This document shows, piece after piece, positions 34,682-64,000 of a DNA stretch of 64,000 bases. Source of the DNA: an endosymbiont of Escarpia spicata (GTDB lineage Bacteria; Pseudomonadota; Gammaproteobacteria; Chromatiales; Chromatiaceae); contig QFXE01000005.1 of the NCBI GenBank assembly GCA_003349915.1, positions 558,001 to 622,000 of the forward strand, given 5' to 3'. The notes below the pieces were generated by a model that was not told where the DNA came from, did no database searches, and saw nothing but the letters and a program-made list of their open reading frames with translations. Numbering within the stretch: the first letter of the stretch is position 1; each line of letters starts with the position of its first letter. A program made the translations under genes and the position numbers.

Positions 34682-34707
34682 AACCAAGCATTTTTATTCC
34701 CCCCACT

Positions 34708-34777
34708 CCCCGAGGGGCGCTGCAGCGGAAACACTTCCGTCAGGCTCGGGAAGAGGGCAACTCAAAAAACGGCGCTC
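34708..34777 (+). promoter_or_regulatory. S-adenosylhomocysteine (SAH) riboswitch
   Basis: The region reads CCCGAGGGGCGCTGCAGCGG, then a small CGGA/TCCG hairpin, then GTCAGGCTCGGG. These are the core elements of the SAH riboswitch. CCCGAG (34709-34714) pairs with CTCGGG (34745-34750). The pseudoknot strand GGGCGC (34715-34720) can pair with GCGCTC (34772-34777). It sits just before ahcY, the gene this class normally activates when SAH builds up. The family is established; the assignment is by eye. Confidence 0.9.
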
Positions 34778-34800
34778 ATTTGTCTCTCGGAGATTGATAA

Positions 34801-57156: not shown

Positions 57157-57213
57157 CGGTTGCCTCCGCTGGAAGGCCTTGTTAAAGGCATATTCTTACT
57201 CTACGCTAGCCAT

Positions 57214-57234
57214 ATGCGCATAATTAATGCGCAT
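57214..57234. promoter_or_regulatory. Operator-like palindrome upstream of ccdAB
   Basis: Two copies of the self-complementary word ATGCGCAT (57214-57221 and 57227-57234) flank AATTA, so the whole 21 bases form a palindrome. It lies about 30 bases ahead of the ccdA start. Toxin-antitoxin pairs usually repress themselves through such sites. Confidence 0.55.
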
Positions 57235-57261
57235 GATGCCTGCATAATGAGATACGTAGCT

Positions 57262-57507
57262 ATGATACATGCTTATAATTATTTGGCGCCAAAAAAGCCT
57301 GCGAACCTTAGCGTTAACAGTGACTTGCTTGCCAAAGCCAAGCGCCTGAAACTCAACCTTTCCGCCACCCTGGAAAATGCCCTTGCTGATGAGGTGCGAA
57401 AGGCAGAACGAACTCAGTGGCTACAAAAAAACCAAAATGCCATTGAAGCTTCAAACCGCCTTGCAGAGGAAAAAGGGTTCTTTGCAGACTCGTACAAGAC
57501 TATCTGA
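57262..57507 (+). CDS. ccdA: CcdA-type antitoxin
   Basis: 81 residues from the ATG at 57262 (MIHAYNYLAPKKPANLSVNS). The N-terminal half has a ribbon-helix-helix pattern (KPANLSVNSDLLAKAKRLKL). The C-terminal half (WLQKNQNAIEASNRLAEEKG) is the part that binds CcdB. An earlier in-frame ATG at 57160 is unlikely. The stop overlaps the toxin start (TGATG). Confidence 0.85.
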   Translation: MIHAYNYLAPKKPANLSVNSDLLAKAKRLKLNLSATLENALADEVRKAERTQWLQKNQNAIEASNRLAEEKGFFADSYKTI

Positions 57508-57824
57508 TGAGCCAATTTACGCTGTACGAGAACAAGAACGCCGATTCCAATGAGACCTATCCTTATTTCATCGATGTTCAAAATGACCTTCTCGATTCTC
57601 TAAATACTCGCCTCGTTATACCTCTTACACCTTCGAAATACCTGGGTGATGTAAATATTGGCAATCTGTGCCCGATAACTTCCATCAATGGCACGCAATT
57701 TGTGCTCCTGACCCACCAAATGACCAACGTTCCTGTTGCTGCACTTCAGGCACCAGTCGATTCCCTGGAACATCTCAGAGAAGAAATAGTGGCGGCGATC
57801 GATTTTCTGGTTACTGGCATTTAA
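57507..57824 (+). CDS. ccdB: CcdB-type gyrase-poison toxin
   Basis: 105 residues, typical length. MSQFTLYENKNADSNETYPY and FIDVQNDLLDSLNTRLVIPL are the CcdB beginning. The gyrase-binding C-terminus is LREEIVAAIDFLVTGI. CcdB traps DNA gyrase in its cleavage complex. The chromosomal copy may stabilise the adjacent region or work as a stress module. One-base overlap with ccdA. Confidence 0.88.
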   Translation: MSQFTLYENKNADSNETYPYFIDVQNDLLDSLNTRLVIPLTPSKYLGDVNIGNLCPITSINGTQFVLLTHQMTNVPVAALQAPVDSLEHLREEIVAAIDFLVTGI

Positions 57825-58026: not shown

Positions 58027-58126
58027 TCAATTTGGGGGTTTTTCCTGGTATTCCTGCCCGCCCCGCCTGACCGATGCTTCGTCCCTCAGCGTCTGTCCGG
58101 CGTGGCTCCCCTTGCCGCACTCCGCG

Positions 58127-58960
58127 CTACCCGCTCTTTTGACCTCGGGCAAGACGCAAGCCAATGAAGTGGTAGCGGCTGCCGGGAACGAGGAAGTCGC
58201 GGTAGGCAGAACGCAGGGACCTGCCGCCGTTGATCCAGGAGCCGCCACGCAAAACACGGGACTCGCCTCCTGGCGGCCCCACAGGATCTACCACCTCACC
58301 CTCTGGGTAGTCACCGTACCAGTCTGCGCACCACTCCCAAACATTGCCGTGCATCTGGTGCAGACCCCAAGTGTTTACCCCTTCCGCCAAGGCTTTGACC
58401 TCTATTGTCTCCTCCCTGTACTGGCCTTTCGGCCCGTCTCCATAGGGATAGCGGCCATTATAGTTGGCCTGATCCGTAGGTATCTGCTCCCCGGCGGCAA
58501 AGGGCGTCTCTGTACCGGCGCGACAGGCGTACTCCCATTCAGACTCTGTCGGCAGGCGGAGGTTCGGGTCCGGCTGTTGTTGGCTCAGCCTGTCGAGAAA
58601 CCCCGCCACATCCTGCCAGCTCACCCGCTCCACTGGCCGATCCTCTCCTTTGAAATGGCTCGGATTGCCTCCCATCACCGCCTCCCACAGGCGTTGGGTA
58701 CAGGCAGTATCCGCCAACCAGTAGCCTTGAGTAATCGTCACCTGATGTTGGGTTTCATCGTCACTACGCTCTGCTTCCGTCTCCGGTGAACCCATCAGAA
58801 AGGTGCCGGGATAGACCCAGCGCAGGCGCTGGGTCACGCCGGATATCTCGAACTCGGCATAGTGGCCATAATCATCCTCACCCCATCCACTTGCCCATGC
58901 CGGGGGAAACGGCTGGGGAAACTGGCTCATGGGTGACGGGTTTTCAGACAGACTGGTCAT
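58127..58960 (-). CDS. DGR target protein 2: FGE-sulfatase (C-type-lectin-fold) protein with variable C-terminus
   Basis: 277 residues, nearly all FGE-sulfatase/SUMF1 domain: GTFLMGSPETEAERSDDE, GYWLADTACTQRLWEAVMGG, VSWQDVAGFLDRL, LRLPTESEWEYACRAGTETP, MHGNVWEWCADWYGD, then RVLRGGSWINGGRSLRSAYR to the end. The variable repeat VR1 codes the last ~40 residues. FGE/CLec folds are the usual ligand-binding domain of DGR targets. The domain is closely related to the C-terminal third of the protein ending at 60831. It has no signal peptide, so it is probably cytoplasmic. Last gene of the DGR cassette. Confidence 0.88.
   Translation of the reverse strand: MTSLSENPSPMSQFPQPFPPAWASGWGEDDYGHYAEFEISGVTQRLRWVYPGTFLMGSPETEAERSDDETQHQVTITQGYWLADTACTQRLWEAVMGGNPSHFKGEDRPVERVSWQDVAGFLDRLSQQQPDPNLRLPTESEWEYACRAGTETPFAAGEQIPTDQANYNGRYPYGDGPKGQYREETIEVKALAEGVNTWGLHQMHGNVWEWCADWYGDYPEGEVVDPVGPPGGESRVLRGGSWINGGRSLRSAYRDFLVPGSRYHFIGLRLARGQKSG
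58144..58270 (-). repeat. DGR variable repeat 1 (VR1)
   Basis: 127 bases aligned without gaps to the template repeat 59124-59250 (offset 980). I count 17 differences at template adenines (T on the plus strand, for example 59147, 59148, 59154, 59168, 59198) and one other (59137, inside the homology block at the 3' end). Variable codons include AAC to AGC, GAC, TTC, TAC and CTC. Confidence 0.93.
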
Positions 58961-59123
58961 GACTGTGATGGCTTTGTGGATAGGCGATCATCCGATGGGC
59001 TTTCGAACTGCATCCGCTAACCCTACTCGCGCACCGGTGACCCTTTGGTTTTTGCCGCATGGCCAAAAGCCGGGCGGACAGGATGGCACTCTGGTCAAAA
59101 TACGCCATCCGGCGCAGATCGAG

Positions 59124-59250
59124 CTCGGGCAAGACGGAAGCCAATGTTGTGGTTGCGGTTGCCGGGATCGTTGATGTTGCGGTAGGCAGAACGCAGGTTC
59201 CTGCCGTTGTTGATCCAGGAGCCGCCACGCAAAACACGGTTCTCGCCTTT
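59124..59250 (-). repeat. DGR template repeat (TR)
   Basis: The noncoding template lies just after the reverse transcriptase stop (59274), on the same strand. Its codons, if read in the VR frame, are rich in AAC (INNGRNLRSAYRNINDPGNR, then NHNIGFR), the typical design that lets adenine mutation give many residues but avoids stops. It ends in the block GGCTTCCGTCTTGCCCGAG, shared with VR2 exactly and with VR1 except for one base. This block is the likely initiation-of-homology element. Confidence 0.93.
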
Positions 59251-59273
59251 ACGAATCCCACCCACCCTTGTGT

Positions 59274-60281
59274 TTATACATCAACAGGTGCATCACGTAA
59301 AAGCACGCTTCGTCGCCAGGCATGACTTTCAGCCCCTTGAAGAATGGCATGAACAGATGCATAGCGGTTTTGCAGCTCAAGGGCGCTGATCTCTCCCGCT
59401 TCCCAAGCGTCCTCCCAATATTGCCGTCTCTCACGATAGCGTCGCTTGCGTCGTGGACTCAGGCCGATGCCAGACGGCTTTATGCGATAGCCGCAATAGG
59501 TAACACCAAAATCACTTCGGTTAATCTGTATGTTGCCTTTGACAGTTAATCGACACTCCTTCTCGATATGTGTTCTCACGGACTCCAGCGTCTGTGCTGC
59601 ATTCTGGCGGCTGTCGCACCACCAGATAATATCGTCCATATAGCGCAGCGACGCTCGCACTTGTGAGTGACCAAGCAACAGCCGGTCCAACCTGTCGAGA
59701 TAGTAGTTGGCGAAATACTGCGAGGTGAGCGAGCCGATGGGCAAGCCCCGTTTACTACCTACATCGTGGCTTTCGATAATTCGTCGTAACAGATTCAGAA
59801 ATTCATCACCTTTGAAACGACGCTGCAACAGTGAAAAGAGTCTGGCATGGCAGATCGAATTAAAATAGCTGTCGATGTCTATCTTTACATACCAGGGGTA
59901 ACGGCGCATTGCCGCCAACACCGCCCCGGCCACCTTATGCACACCTCGCCCAGGCAGACAGGCATAGGTGGTCGGCGCCATGGCCTTTTCAAACAGAGGA
60001 CCGGCAAGATTCATGATGGCGTGGTGGACCACACGATCCTCAAAGCAGGCTGCATGAATCAGTCGCCGTTTCGGATCATGGATGACAAACTGTTTGTATC
60101 GGCCATAGGGCGCCCTGCCGTCAAGGATGTCTGCACCAAGTTGTTCCAGGTTTGCATCCAGATCACTGAAGAACGCGGCAACTTTCGGCCGCCCATGCTT
60201 ACCCCGCCCGGCTTTCCAAGCGGCCAAAACCAGATTATTCAGCTCCCCGATCACCTCAATATCGATGCGGGTTCTTCTCAT
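59274..60281 (-). CDS. DGR-type reverse transcriptase
   Basis: 335 residues from the ATG at 60281, which overlaps the HRDC-gene stop (ATGA). A longer frame to 60314 is less likely. RT motifs: WYVKIDIDSYFNSI (motif with catalytic Asp, about 130-143), LPIGSLTSQYFANYYLD (the SQ version diagnostic of DGR RTs, about 180-196) and the catalytic YMDDI (214-218), then the thumb CGYRIKPSGIGLSPRRKRR. It copies the TR RNA into cDNA with errors at adenine. There is no group II intron maturase domain. Confidence 0.95.
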   Translation of the reverse strand: MRRTRIDIEVIGELNNLVLAAWKAGRGKHGRPKVAAFFSDLDANLEQLGADILDGRAPYGRYKQFVIHDPKRRLIHAACFEDRVVHHAIMNLAGPLFEKAMAPTTYACLPGRGVHKVAGAVLAAMRRYPWYVKIDIDSYFNSICHARLFSLLQRRFKGDEFLNLLRRIIESHDVGSKRGLPIGSLTSQYFANYYLDRLDRLLLGHSQVRASLRYMDDIIWWCDSRQNAAQTLESVRTHIEKECRLTVKGNIQINRSDFGVTYCGYRIKPSGIGLSPRRKRRYRERRQYWEDAWEAGEISALELQNRYASVHAILQGAESHAWRRSVLLRDAPVDV

Positions 60282-60739
60282 TGTGACGGCTTCTGTTTTT
60301 CCACTGCCCCACACAGTGTTTCGATGAAGAACGCACCAAATTTGTCGATTTTTGCCTTTCCGATACCCTCGATATTTCTCAAGGCAGCCAGGCTATCTAC
60401 ACGGTTTCGTACCATTTCCGCTAACTGTTCGTTGTTAAATACCGCATAGGCATGTATCCCCTCAGCTTCAGCCAACTGCTTTCTTTGGTTGCGTAATATG
60501 GCGTAGAGGGCAAAATCCTGCTCATTGAGCACCTCCCGATAGTCAACACTTGGCTTATTGCCGCGCTTTGCCTCTCCCTGCTGCACATAAGTGACGCAGA
60601 TCGACCAGAAGCTGCTCTCACCCGCCGCCACGAACTGCTTCTCTACGGCAACAATCCGCATGCTACCGCAAAATCGGTTGAGTGCCTCCTGTCCCGGTTC
60701 CGGGAAGCGTGCATCTATCGTGAAAAATTGATATTTCAT
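60278..60739 (-). CDS. HRDC-domain DGR accessory protein
   Basis: 153 residues. A short N-terminal domain (MKYQFFTIDARFPEPGQEAL) is followed by an HRDC domain (about 72-146: ALYAILRNQRKQLAEAEGIH, NNEQLAEMVRNR, LRNIEGIGKAKIDKFGAFF), a nucleic-acid-binding fold of RecQ and RNase D. An HRDC accessory gene in place of avd is known from a subset of DGRs. It is translated with the RT (four-base overlap), so probably takes part in retrohoming. The exact role is unknown. Confidence 0.85.
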   Translation of the reverse strand: MKYQFFTIDARFPEPGQEALNRFCGSMRIVAVEKQFVAAGESSFWSICVTYVQQGEAKRGNKPSVDYREVLNEQDFALYAILRNQRKQLAEAEGIHAYAVFNNEQLAEMVRNRVDSLAALRNIEGIGKAKIDKFGAFFIETLCGAVEKQKPSQ

Positions 60740-60830
60740 TTCAATTCCTGAAGGCTACCTCCGCCACACCTGACCGATGCTTCGTCCCTCAGCATCTGTC
60801 CGGCGCGGCTCCCCCTTGCCGCGCTCCGCG

Positions 60831-63176
60831 CTACCGGCCATTTTGACCTCGGGCAAGACGGAAGCCAATGTTGAGGTAGCGGGAGCCGGGATCGTCGATG
60901 CCGCGGCAGGCAGAACGCAGGTTCCTGCCGCCGCTGACCCAGGAGCCGCCACGCAAAACACGGAACCCGCGGAGCACGCCTTTAGGCGGCCCCACCGGAT
61001 CTTCGTCCTCACCCTCTGGGTAGTCACCGTACCAGTCTGCACACCACTCAATAACATTCCCGTGCATCTGGTGCAGGCCCCAAGTATTTATCCCTTCCGC
61101 CAGGGCTTTGACTTCTATTGTCTCCTCCCTGTATGGGCCTTTCGGACCATCATTGTAAGGGTAGTTACCATCGTAATTGGCCTGTTCCGTAGATATCTGC
61201 TCCCCGGAGGCAAAGGGCGTCTCTGTACCGGCACGACAGGCATACTCCCATTCAGCCTCTGTCGGCAGCCGGAGGCCCGGATCCGGCTGTTGCTGGTTCA
61301 GCCTATCGAGAAATCCCGCCACATCCTGCCAACTCACGCTCTCCACAGGCCGATCCTCTCCCTTGAAACGACTCGGGTTGTTTCCCATCACCACCTCCCA
61401 TAATCCCTGGGTGCAGGCTGTATCCGCCAGCCAGTAGCCTTGAGTAATCGTCACTTGGTGTTGGAATTCGTCGTCATCACGCTCAAGCTCCGCTTCCGGT
61501 GAACCCATCATGAAGCTGCCGGGGTTGACCCAGCGCATGCGTTGGGTCACGCCGGATATCTCAAACTCAGCATAGAGACCGAAGTGATCGCATCCCATGA
61601 CCGAGGCCCATTCAGGGCGTAGCCTGGATGTCAGGAATAGCTGTTCAGTATCGCTGCGCAGCAGAATGTTCCCTGGATAGGGCGGCAGGGTCAGTGCTTG
61701 CGGCAGATTGGCGGGATCAATACTGCCCGTGACGGGGGTGGCCAATCCAGGGGCCTCGATCTGCCATTGGAGATAGTCTCCAGCGGTGAAGCTGGCAATG
61801 GGGCTGCCTCTTGAGTATGCCGCCGGTATATTCACGTCAGACAACACCCCGATCACCAGTTGATCCGCCTGTTGCCGCAATTGCACCTGACGGGGCGCAT
61901 GACCCTGCATCAGCCAATGGGCGGATAACAGGTCCACACCTGCAGGTGGGTCCAGGGTTTCCCCCCGCTGTTCCGCAACCCGCCTGACTGCCACCCAGGC
62001 AGCGGTCAGCAGCGGGTCACCGCGCTCCCACATGGCGTTGTGATGGCGTTCCACCGAACGGCCCACCCAATTGCCCATGGCTGTATCGTGAGGATTATTC
62101 AGCAGCGTCCTGATCTCCCGCTCCATGTGGTGTTCGTAAACCGGGCTGACCTTGACCCCCAGCTCGGCGCAGTAGCGCATCTCGGTAGCGAGAACGACCG
62201 GGGGCAGTCCGGCGTGATGGGCCGCCAGCAGTTGCGACAACATCGCTTTGCAGGCTGGATCCAGTTCCCGGTATTTTTCACGATGCTCCTCCACTGCATG
62301 ATCCTTAAAGGCAAAACCGGCGAGGGCCGAATCGACGCCTTCGTGTTGCCATATCTCAGCCTCGTTTCCCACATCGGCCTGATCCGTAGATAACAGATAA
62401 CGGGCAGCCCGTAACAGCGCAGGTTCTACCCGGATGGCCGGGGCCAGCAGATCAAGCAAGTTTGCCACACCATCGATATCCGGGCCGAGACGCCTCCCCA
62501 TGATCCGGCTGTTCCCGGGCAGTTTGCCCGGCAGGGGTACGCCGCGATCCCAAACCACCTGGGTAAAGAGCCGGGAGAGATGCTTGTCCCAGAGACGGGA
62601 AGGGGTGGGCGTCAGCACCCACGGGGTGATTCCCCTGGCCCTGAGCCCTCGGCCAAAACGCCGCCAACCGTTTTTGCTCAACGCCAGTTGGTCGTACTGG
62701 CCAAGATCGCTGAGAATCAGCAGCGGCGTCCCTGACGGAGGCAGATGACAACCTTGCGGCGGCTCATCCAGCTCATCCACCTGAAGTCCCTGCCTGCCAC
62801 GCAGCCGTACCAGGGCGCGTTTCAGATCTCCAAAATCATCCCAGAATGGAGCCAGCCGGTGGCTGACATCAATGATCAGACGGCATTCACCGGACCAGGT
62901 ATGTCGCTGAAGGTAGGGGATCCGGTGCAGTGTCCGGCCTCGCACCAGTTCCCCAACCAGCGCCGGCAGGTCGGGTTCGTTGGTGGCTTGCCTGTCACCA
63001 AGAACCAAACGCAGGAAAGGCCAAAGACGCCGCCAGGGTGCAAGCGGCGATTTTTCCGGGGGGACATAAGCAAAATCCGGAGCAGACTCCTCCGGGGAAA
63101 GGGGCACAGCGTTGGTGAACCAGGCTGGCACCTCGCGGTTTGAGTTGTCTCTGTCCCGTTGCCGGTGACGCTGCAT
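60831..63176 (-). CDS. DGR target protein 1: vWA-like plus FGE-sulfatase protein (conflict-system type)
   Basis: 781 residues from the first ATG (63176), but the coding frame runs on upstream to about 63464. Approximate layout: a linker (1-60), a vWA-like domain with ECRLIIDVSHRLAPFWDDF and GTPLLILSDLGQYD (about 95-290), a middle helical domain, and a C-terminal FGE-sulfatase domain (about 520-781) with GSFMMGSPEAELERDDDEF, LPTEAEWEYACRAGTETP and MHGNVIEWCADWYGDY. VR2 forms its last ~40 residues. A MoxR ATPase directly upstream and a vWA-like domain match the MoxR-vWA conflict systems. Binding target unknown. Confidence 0.85.
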   Translation of the reverse strand: MQRHRQRDRDNSNREVPAWFTNAVPLSPEESAPDFAYVPPEKSPLAPWRRLWPFLRLVLGDRQATNEPDLPALVGELVRGRTLHRIPYLQRHTWSGECRLIIDVSHRLAPFWDDFGDLKRALVRLRGRQGLQVDELDEPPQGCHLPPSGTPLLILSDLGQYDQLALSKNGWRRFGRGLRARGITPWVLTPTPSRLWDKHLSRLFTQVVWDRGVPLPGKLPGNSRIMGRRLGPDIDGVANLLDLLAPAIRVEPALLRAARYLLSTDQADVGNEAEIWQHEGVDSALAGFAFKDHAVEEHREKYRELDPACKAMLSQLLAAHHAGLPPVVLATEMRYCAELGVKVSPVYEHHMEREIRTLLNNPHDTAMGNWVGRSVERHHNAMWERGDPLLTAAWVAVRRVAEQRGETLDPPAGVDLLSAHWLMQGHAPRQVQLRQQADQLVIGVLSDVNIPAAYSRGSPIASFTAGDYLQWQIEAPGLATPVTGSIDPANLPQALTLPPYPGNILLRSDTEQLFLTSRLRPEWASVMGCDHFGLYAEFEISGVTQRMRWVNPGSFMMGSPEAELERDDDEFQHQVTITQGYWLADTACTQGLWEVVMGNNPSRFKGEDRPVESVSWQDVAGFLDRLNQQQPDPGLRLPTEAEWEYACRAGTETPFASGEQISTEQANYDGNYPYNDGPKGPYREETIEVKALAEGINTWGLHQMHGNVIEWCADWYGDYPEGEDEDPVGPPKGVLRGFRVLRGGSWVSGGRNLRSACRGIDDPGSRYLNIGFRLARGQNGR
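60848..60970 (-). repeat. DGR variable repeat 2 (VR2)
   Basis: Aligned without gaps to TR 59124-59246 (offset 1724). I count 15 differences, all at template adenines (T on the plus strand), and none elsewhere. After 60970 a non-adenine change (C to G) and further divergence mark the upstream border. VR2 encodes RVLRGGSWVSGGRNLRSACR, then GIDDPGSRYLNIGFRLAR. Confidence 0.93.
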
Positions 63177-63403
63177 GTACCAGAAGCAGGCCTTGGGTGT
63201 TTGTCTGGATGTGCCTTTCCCTGTAACGGCTTGGGCGGCACCTTCACCTGTGGCCTCGATAATGGTGACTGGCTTCTCTTCACCATCGTCTTTGGCCGCT
63301 CCAGGAACCTTTTCATAGCCCAGGAACCGGGCAAAATGCTCCAGTCCTGCATCGCCGTAATCTGCCAGGGCATCGATCAGCTCTGCCCGGCCAGGCTGGG
63401 TGC

Positions 63404-63424
63404 GCCGGAAGGCGGAAGGCGGAA
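63404..63424. repeat. Three near-tandem copies of a 7-bp unit at the target 1 N-terminus
   Basis: GCCGGAA (63404-63410), GGCGGAA (63411-63417) and GGCGGAA (63418-63424). The unit length is not divisible by three, so a change of copy number moves the reading frame. It lies between the ATG at 63450 and the target 1 coding frame. Removing one unit puts this ATG exactly in frame. Confidence 0.7.
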
Positions 63425-63464
63425 GGTGCGCTATAGGATGCCTTGCCCATTCAGGATCACCCCG

Positions 63465-64000
63465 TCAATCAGCATCCGATTCCAGGTAGGGGGATTTTTT
63501 CAGCGCATAGTCCTTGATCTTGTGCAGCACCTCCATTTGGTCACGCTCACTATCGGCCATGCCGCTCACTGCCCTCAACATGTCGAGGTATTCAGCCTGT
63601 CCCGGCGGGGTGATGCCGAAATCCTGCGCTGCAAGACGATCTTCCTGAAGCAGCTCCGCTGCCTCTTTCAGCACATTCTCTTTGCAGTCATCCCCGAAAT
63701 GGAGCCGCCCCCTTTCAATCAGGTATTCGACCAAACCGGACTCATCTTTCGGTAGTTCGAGTCTCAGCACCATGCAGCGACGCAAGAAAGCCGCGGGGAG
63801 TTCCCGCTCTTCATTGGTGGTGACTACCACCAGCGGCGGGTTCTCCTGTTGCTGCTTGATGGTCTTGTGAATGTAGGGCACGGTGAATGCGCCGTTGCCA
63901 AGGCTCTCCAGCAGGCCGTTTGGAAGGTCAGCGTCCGCCTTGTCAATCTCGTCGATCAACAGCACACTGCCCTCACCCGGCTGCCACTTCGAAGGTCTTT
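63465..64000 (-). CDS. MoxR-type AAA+ ATPase, C-terminal part (cut by window edge)
   Basis: The visible minus-strand coding sequence enters from beyond 64000. It has the Walker B-like GSVLLIDEIDKADADLPNGL, sensor 1 PLVVVTTNEERELPAAF and the arginine finger area LRRCMVLRLELPK. It is a different protein from the bat-operon MoxR. It lies directly upstream of target 1 with the same orientation, and the stop TGA (63467-63465) is followed by C. In conflict systems this ATPase is thought to operate with the vWA/FGE partner. Confidence 0.85.
   Translation of the reverse strand, partial: RPSKWQPGEGSVLLIDEIDKADADLPNGLLESLGNGAFTVPYIHKTIKQQQENPPLVVVTTNEERELPAAFLRRCMVLRLELPKDESGLVEYLIERGRLHFGDDCKENVLKEAAELLQEDRLAAQDFGITPPGQAEYLDMLRAVSGMADSERDQMEVLHKIKDYALKKSPYLESDAD

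Follow-up and report, generated by a model that had tools for sequence, protein, structure and literature searches.

A diversity-generating retroelement coupled to a MoxR/vWA-like module in an endosymbiont of Escarpia spicata

The window analyzed here is a stretch of 64,000 nucleotides from contig QFXE01000005.1 (positions 558,001 to 622,000 of the forward strand, assembly GCA_003349915.1) of an endosymbiont of Escarpia spicata. Positions 58127-64000 hold, on the minus strand, a complete diversity-generating retroelement (DGR) that consists of a reverse transcriptase (RT), an HRDC gene, a template repeat (TR) of about 126 nt and two target genes with the FGE fold. The accessory gene of a DGR encodes either Avd or an HRDC protein. 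The module is ordered as follows, and everything listed is on the minus strand: a TIR protein, a MoxR-type ATPase, a 781-aa target, HRDC, RT, TR and a 277-aa target.

The RT gene (59274..60314) encodes 346 aa if translation starts at a GTG; an internal ATG at 60281 is an equally possible start. Its translation carries the SQ motif (GSLTSQYFANYYL) and YMDD, as the original prediction had stated from the sequence, and matches RVT_1 (E 3.6e-16). The predicted HRDC accessory gene is likewise there (60278..60739, 153 aa, Pfam HRDC E 1e-16). Both of the predicted FGE-fold targets match FGE-sulfatase, namely the short target (58127..58960, 277 aa, E 1.8e-41) and the C-terminal domain of the large one (residues 532-778, 60843..61583, E 4.4e-39), and both end in variable repeats (VRs), VR1 at 58134..58259 and VR2 at 60838..60963. 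The TR lies just 3′ of the RT gene (59114..59239). It had been described as A-rich, but its richness is only mild, with 24 adenines and 91 other bases in the 115-nt core over which TR and VRs were compared. VR1 differs from the TR at 13 of the 24 adenines and at one of the 91 other bases (Fisher 6e-10), and VR2 at 12 adenines and no other base (Fisher 4e-10). The adenines fall mostly in AAC-type codons, 12 in the first codon position, 11 in the second and one in the third. The comparison shows VR1 and VR2 to be copies of the TR 3′ of the RT gene that were mutated at adenines, and each closes the FGE/C-type-lectin domain of its target.

The same pattern is found across related loci. The N-terminal extension of the large target has too few conserved stretches to serve alone as a query for public genomes, and relatives were therefore gathered by RT alignment, taking the best 80 of 462 RT-encoding stretches. 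Together with both loci of this genome, this gave 82 loci for comparison of TR with VR. A first scoring that tolerated changes at A contained self-matches and was replaced by a neutral one, which yielded 118 TR–VR pairs in 65 of the 82 loci after 25 candidate pairs under the score limit had been dropped. Changes in these pairs affected 1809 of 3277 adenines in the TR, compared with 171 of 5156 C, 63 of 4498 G and 48 of 2222 T.

VRs were also compared with each other in the 47 loci that had enough flanking sequence and at least two usable VRs; the first two detected were taken, which in some loci lie in one protein. Summed over these loci, differences amounted to 3731/17784 in the preceding flank, 64/4692 at non-A sites of the VR and 749/1290 at A sites, and the non-A rate was below that of the flank in every one of the 47, although similarity to the TR was the criterion by which VRs were detected, and this favors low divergence at non-A sites. 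In the window, VR1 and VR2 differ at 17 of 27 A sites and at one of 99 non-A sites, against 53 of 389 positions in their flanks. VRs that are alike at non-A sites, differ at A sites and are set between unlike flanks bear the mark of repeated template copying.

The best solved relative of the short target by sequence is the Treponema variable protein TvpA (PDB 2y3c, E 1.2e-26), which is also the best structural match of the FGE domain. The end of the FGE model aligns with the end of TvpA (residue 329), and the VR of TvpA spans residues 285-329 (PMC6328139). Judged from the alignment of sequence and model to TvpA, the VRs sit in the ligand-binding end of C-type-lectin targets.

Each VR is followed by a hairpin-forming sequence. 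The one after VR1 (58060..58106, from the DNA fold of 58050-58145) has a z-score of -2.52 relative to shuffled sequences and the one after VR2 (60763..60809, fold of 60755-60850) a z-score of -3.75, whereas the stretch after the TR gives 0.43. Among the related loci, z-scores under -2 were obtained for 67 of the 114 stretches that follow a VR, compared with six of 63 after a TR and 11 of 130 random ones. Only five of the 114 have at least six T within 12 nt after the hairpin, so most VR hairpins do not look like terminators. Pairs compared between the two VRs of a locus (40 loci) gave a mixed picture, with 57 compensatory, 37 one-sided and 174 broken. Two simpler descriptors were discarded: a plain hairpin count (at least 10 bp, minimum free energy below -20) separated VR from TR poorly (111/115 versus 42/63), which is why z-scores were used, and GGACAG...GGTCAG was present in just 10 of 115 VR stretches. 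The DGR of Bordetella phage BPP-1 needs a hairpin structure after its VR (Guo 2011, PMC3240598).

The MoxR gene is placed between the large target and a partner gene. Its 3′ part occupies 63465..64000, where the window edge cuts it, and the full sequence of 323 aa was taken from the contig (L004:6465-7436). An AAA_5 match (E 2.4e-10) confirms that a MoxR-type AAA+ ATPase lies directly upstream of the larger target. The partner, the TIR protein, is the first gene of the module; it lies past the window edge (L004:7433-8857, TIR_2 E 3.7e-11) and overlaps MoxR by 4 nt. Residue 82 of this protein is a glutamate, in what we take to be the place of the catalytic glutamate.

Partner open reading frames (ORFs) 5′ of MoxR share a C-terminal region of about 305 aa, which is present in 32 of 50 upstream ORFs above 60 bits and in 37 if weak matches are counted, among which some drift is possible because the search was iterative. 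In a Pfam tally of 30 partner proteins at E 0.01, the effectors in front of this region were TIR_2 (11), Trypsin_2 (four), Metallophos (three), and SIR2_2, CHAT, GT4-conflict and PNP_UDP_1 (one each). When ten partners were scanned singly against NCBIfam, some matched the effector ends of anti-phage families, such as retron-TIR, DS8/DS9 and Dsr2; a literature search for the origin of the DS8/DS9 names found no paper. No non-effector family recurred in the Pfam and NCBIfam tallies, in which matched regions were viewed for the first member and the ten single scans. VMAP-C was not detected in the partner region by hhalign (10.8, versus 12.9 and 13.2 for reversed controls), nor was it in the Pfam tally of the 30 proteins. 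A VMAP-C search gave one weak match under the cut-off in 19 genomes and none in 369 genomes of the class, but no control genome gave a signal in it, and it does not show absence. With moderate confidence, the gene before MoxR encodes an effector, here TIR, joined to this common and as yet unnamed C-terminal region.

The large target is a 781-aa ORF (60831..63176) that reads as a vWA-like domain, helical and beta regions and the C-terminal FGE domain. The predicted link to vWA holds with moderate strength: Pfam reports no vWA in this protein, while comparison of profiles and folds supports a divergent vWA-like domain at residues 84-216 (62529..62927) to a moderate degree. The N-terminus has a profile score of 41.6 against vWA, with controls at most 20, and in structure comparisons it matches vWA domains best (Z up to 10.2). 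With Foldseek as the sole tool, vWA did not stand out. With moderate confidence, the large target is a divergent vWA component fused to an FGE/C-type-lectin domain. Passages of Dore 2024 (PMC10907252) call the N-terminus of the large target in clade 5A loci "without predicted domains".

A search of related genomes for MoxR-vWA/FGE-HRDC-RT sets, which the original prediction had proposed, found the extension in 46 of the best 80 RT relatives and MoxR together with it in 42, counted in the stretches fetched. The extension occurs in 43 of the 53 relatives for which 3.5 kb or more of sequence precedes the RT. When plasmids were searched with the window's extension, no match was obtained. Two Streptomyces plasmids (L176 and L177) encode a TIR protein, MoxR and profile-level relatives of the extension, with no RT, HRDC or FGE match within the stretch. 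In these plasmids, a CHAT/TPR or TPR protein comes after the set.

The start of the large target is unusual. Upstream of the 781-aa ORF, and in frame with it, is an open frame (63177..63464) with a conserved N-terminal stretch (GRAEL...LGYEK...FW) that the ORF itself lacks. The only ATG between the MoxR stop and this stretch is in a different frame, and between the two a 7-bp unit is repeated three times without mismatch (63406..63426). Of the 51 loci that have both MoxR and the extension, 49 have a target ORF that begins early in the extension profile, at position 21 or lower; the ORF begins at position 66 in the window and at 121 in another locus, L094. This locus is the only one of the 51 with a thrice-repeated unit near the target start whose length is not a multiple of three; L096 has a 6-bp unit. 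Switching by slippage, an unusual start codon or simple damage could each account for the missing start.

The module lies between dciA/peptidase M23/secA and lpxC/ftsZ (57141 to L004:9013), a gap that seems to receive different insertions across the genus. Its flanks are about 110 bp apart in sister genome G005, compared with about 8.9 kb here; sister genome G001 has some 4 kb of different content at the site, and the flanks fall on separate contigs in G002-G004. A CcdA/CcdB toxin–antitoxin pair (57160-57824, Pfam E 5.5e-26 and 3.5e-33) adjoins the short target, within the stretch that is absent from G005; matching DNA is present in G004. When 92 genomes, among them this one, were searched, 10 had a related RT at E 1e-20.

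This genome has a second DGR locus of the same layout on contig C8 (L005, G000:C8:10000-29000), ordered Trypco2, a trypsin-type protein, MoxR, an 803-aa target, HRDC, RT, TR and a second target. The trypsin-type protein, whose score of 27.2 bits narrowly misses the Pfam cut-off (27.6), stands in place of TIR. A third RT reading frame in the genome is a 525-aa open frame at L003 (G000:C17; RVT_1 E 2.5e-10). Elsewhere in the window, an SAH riboswitch aptamer is found at 34706-34784 (62.7 bits).

The predicted coupling of a DGR to a MoxR/vWA-type module is supported by the A-restricted change between TR and VR, by the gene order and by the vWA-like domain. We consider it somewhat probable that the locus is a three-part alarm system whose sensor is diversified by a cellular DGR. 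The RT and HRDC protein would copy the TR into the VRs, placing random bases at A, and the hairpins after each VR would aid this copying. A ligand bound by the variable domain would signal through the vWA-like domain to MoxR. This ATPase would then release the TIR effector, which, perhaps by destroying NAD+, would stop an infection or kill the cell. The short target could be a second receptor or a decoy. In this way, the cell may retune what its sensor recognizes.

Three observations weigh against this proposal. The conserved N-terminal stretch of the large target has no in-frame ATG, GTG or TTG; Pfam finds no vWA in any of 45 aligned large targets, that of the window being equally without one; and the top vWA rows in the structure comparison come from two paralogues, which lowers the odds of this reading and of a broader version of it. 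The broader version, which is possible but falls a little short of probable, takes such loci to be complete but overlooked ternary systems in which a hidden vWA component is the sensor that the DGR diversifies and the partners make up a new family of adaptors, whose common C-terminus is a "socket" for TIR, trypsin, phosphoesterase, SIR2, CHAT or glycosyltransferase effectors; in this genome, the sensor might also switch by changes in the copy number of the 7-bp repeat at its start.

An unlikely alternative reverses the direction of signaling, as in Kaur 2020 (PMC7159879): the partner would sense invasion and MoxR would release the vWA-FGE protein as a hypervariable binder that acts on the invader. 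The order of partner, MoxR and vWA is identical, and the FGS domain is listed among effectors in the passages of that paper. However, the enzyme-type effectors, namely TIR, trypsin, phosphoesterase and SIR2, are found on the partner, as expected if the signal runs the other way, and Dore 2024 (PMC10907252) argues that the targets are sensors.

Still less likely, the locus may be decaying or switched off, with the start of the large target lost and the VR differences left as fossils. The conserved stretch that is out of frame with the sole upstream ATG and the late beginning of the ORF would be expected of such a locus. However, zero or one non-A difference from the TR in 91 sites, compared with the divergence of the flanks, points to recent copying, the remaining genes are open reading frames, and the large target of the genome's second locus is uninterrupted. 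Least likely of all, the diversified proteins could be surface adhesins or receptors beside a separate MoxR/TIR system, as the match to TvpA and the surface display of DGR targets in other systems would allow, but a vWA-type component is fused to FGE, the extension recurs in most loci with enough upstream DNA, and no signal peptide is apparent by eye in the targets (no predictor was run).

If the diversified-sensor proposal is correct, DGRs whose large targets have no known N-terminal domain would be linked to MoxR-vWA conflict systems, and one model (a diversified sensor, an ATPase switch and a swappable effector) could be tested over many bacteria. The partner domain also deserves attention for the question of whether mutating receptors serve bacteria as an immune repertoire. 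What is added here is a clearer view of two unexplained parts of the module, the vWA-like N-terminus and the shared C-terminal region of the partner, and the mark of VR copying in all loci compared.

The configuration itself is already in print. According to passages of Kaur 2020 (PMC7159879), which also reports N-terminal MoxR motifs for VMAP systems, about 80% of the VMAP systems in cyanobacteria and gammaproteobacteria are linked to DGRs, in most cases with a vWA-FGE-type fusion, and Dore 2024 (PMC10907252) describes the clade 5A DGR layout, with its targets proposed as sensors; the present locus is therefore a further case of a known arrangement. Supplements apart, the passages drawn on from the two papers do not mention the vWA nature of the extension or the shared partner region. 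Clade 5A loci, such as DGR 8 of Thiohalocapsa PB-PSB1, resemble this locus in layout, with MoxR, a long-extension target, a short target and the DGR. In those passages, however, the extension has no reported domain, whereas that of the window looks vWA-like, and no VMAP is reported, DGR 8 having a helix-turn-helix gene where the window has a partner with the shared C-terminal region.

The MoxR-vWA VMAP ternary DGR systems (PMC7159879; Nostoc pn2, L185, and Acaryochloris pREC1, L183, were fetched) share the order of the present locus: partner, MoxR, a vWA-type component fused to FGE, a second FGE protein and the DGR genes. The present locus differs in that its partner has no detectable VMAP-C, its vWA is missed by Pfam and HRDC takes the place of Avd, although profile and structure relate the vWA-like fold of its component to canonical vWA components. 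TvpA of Treponema denticola (PDB 2y3c; PMC6328139) is a single-domain protein and lacks the fusion to a vWA component. The DGR of BPP-1 has the same A-directed copying from TR to VR and a hairpin after the VR, but it is a phage element whose hairpins have stems of 7-10 bp and 4-nt loops (PMC3240598), and those of the window are longer and less regular.
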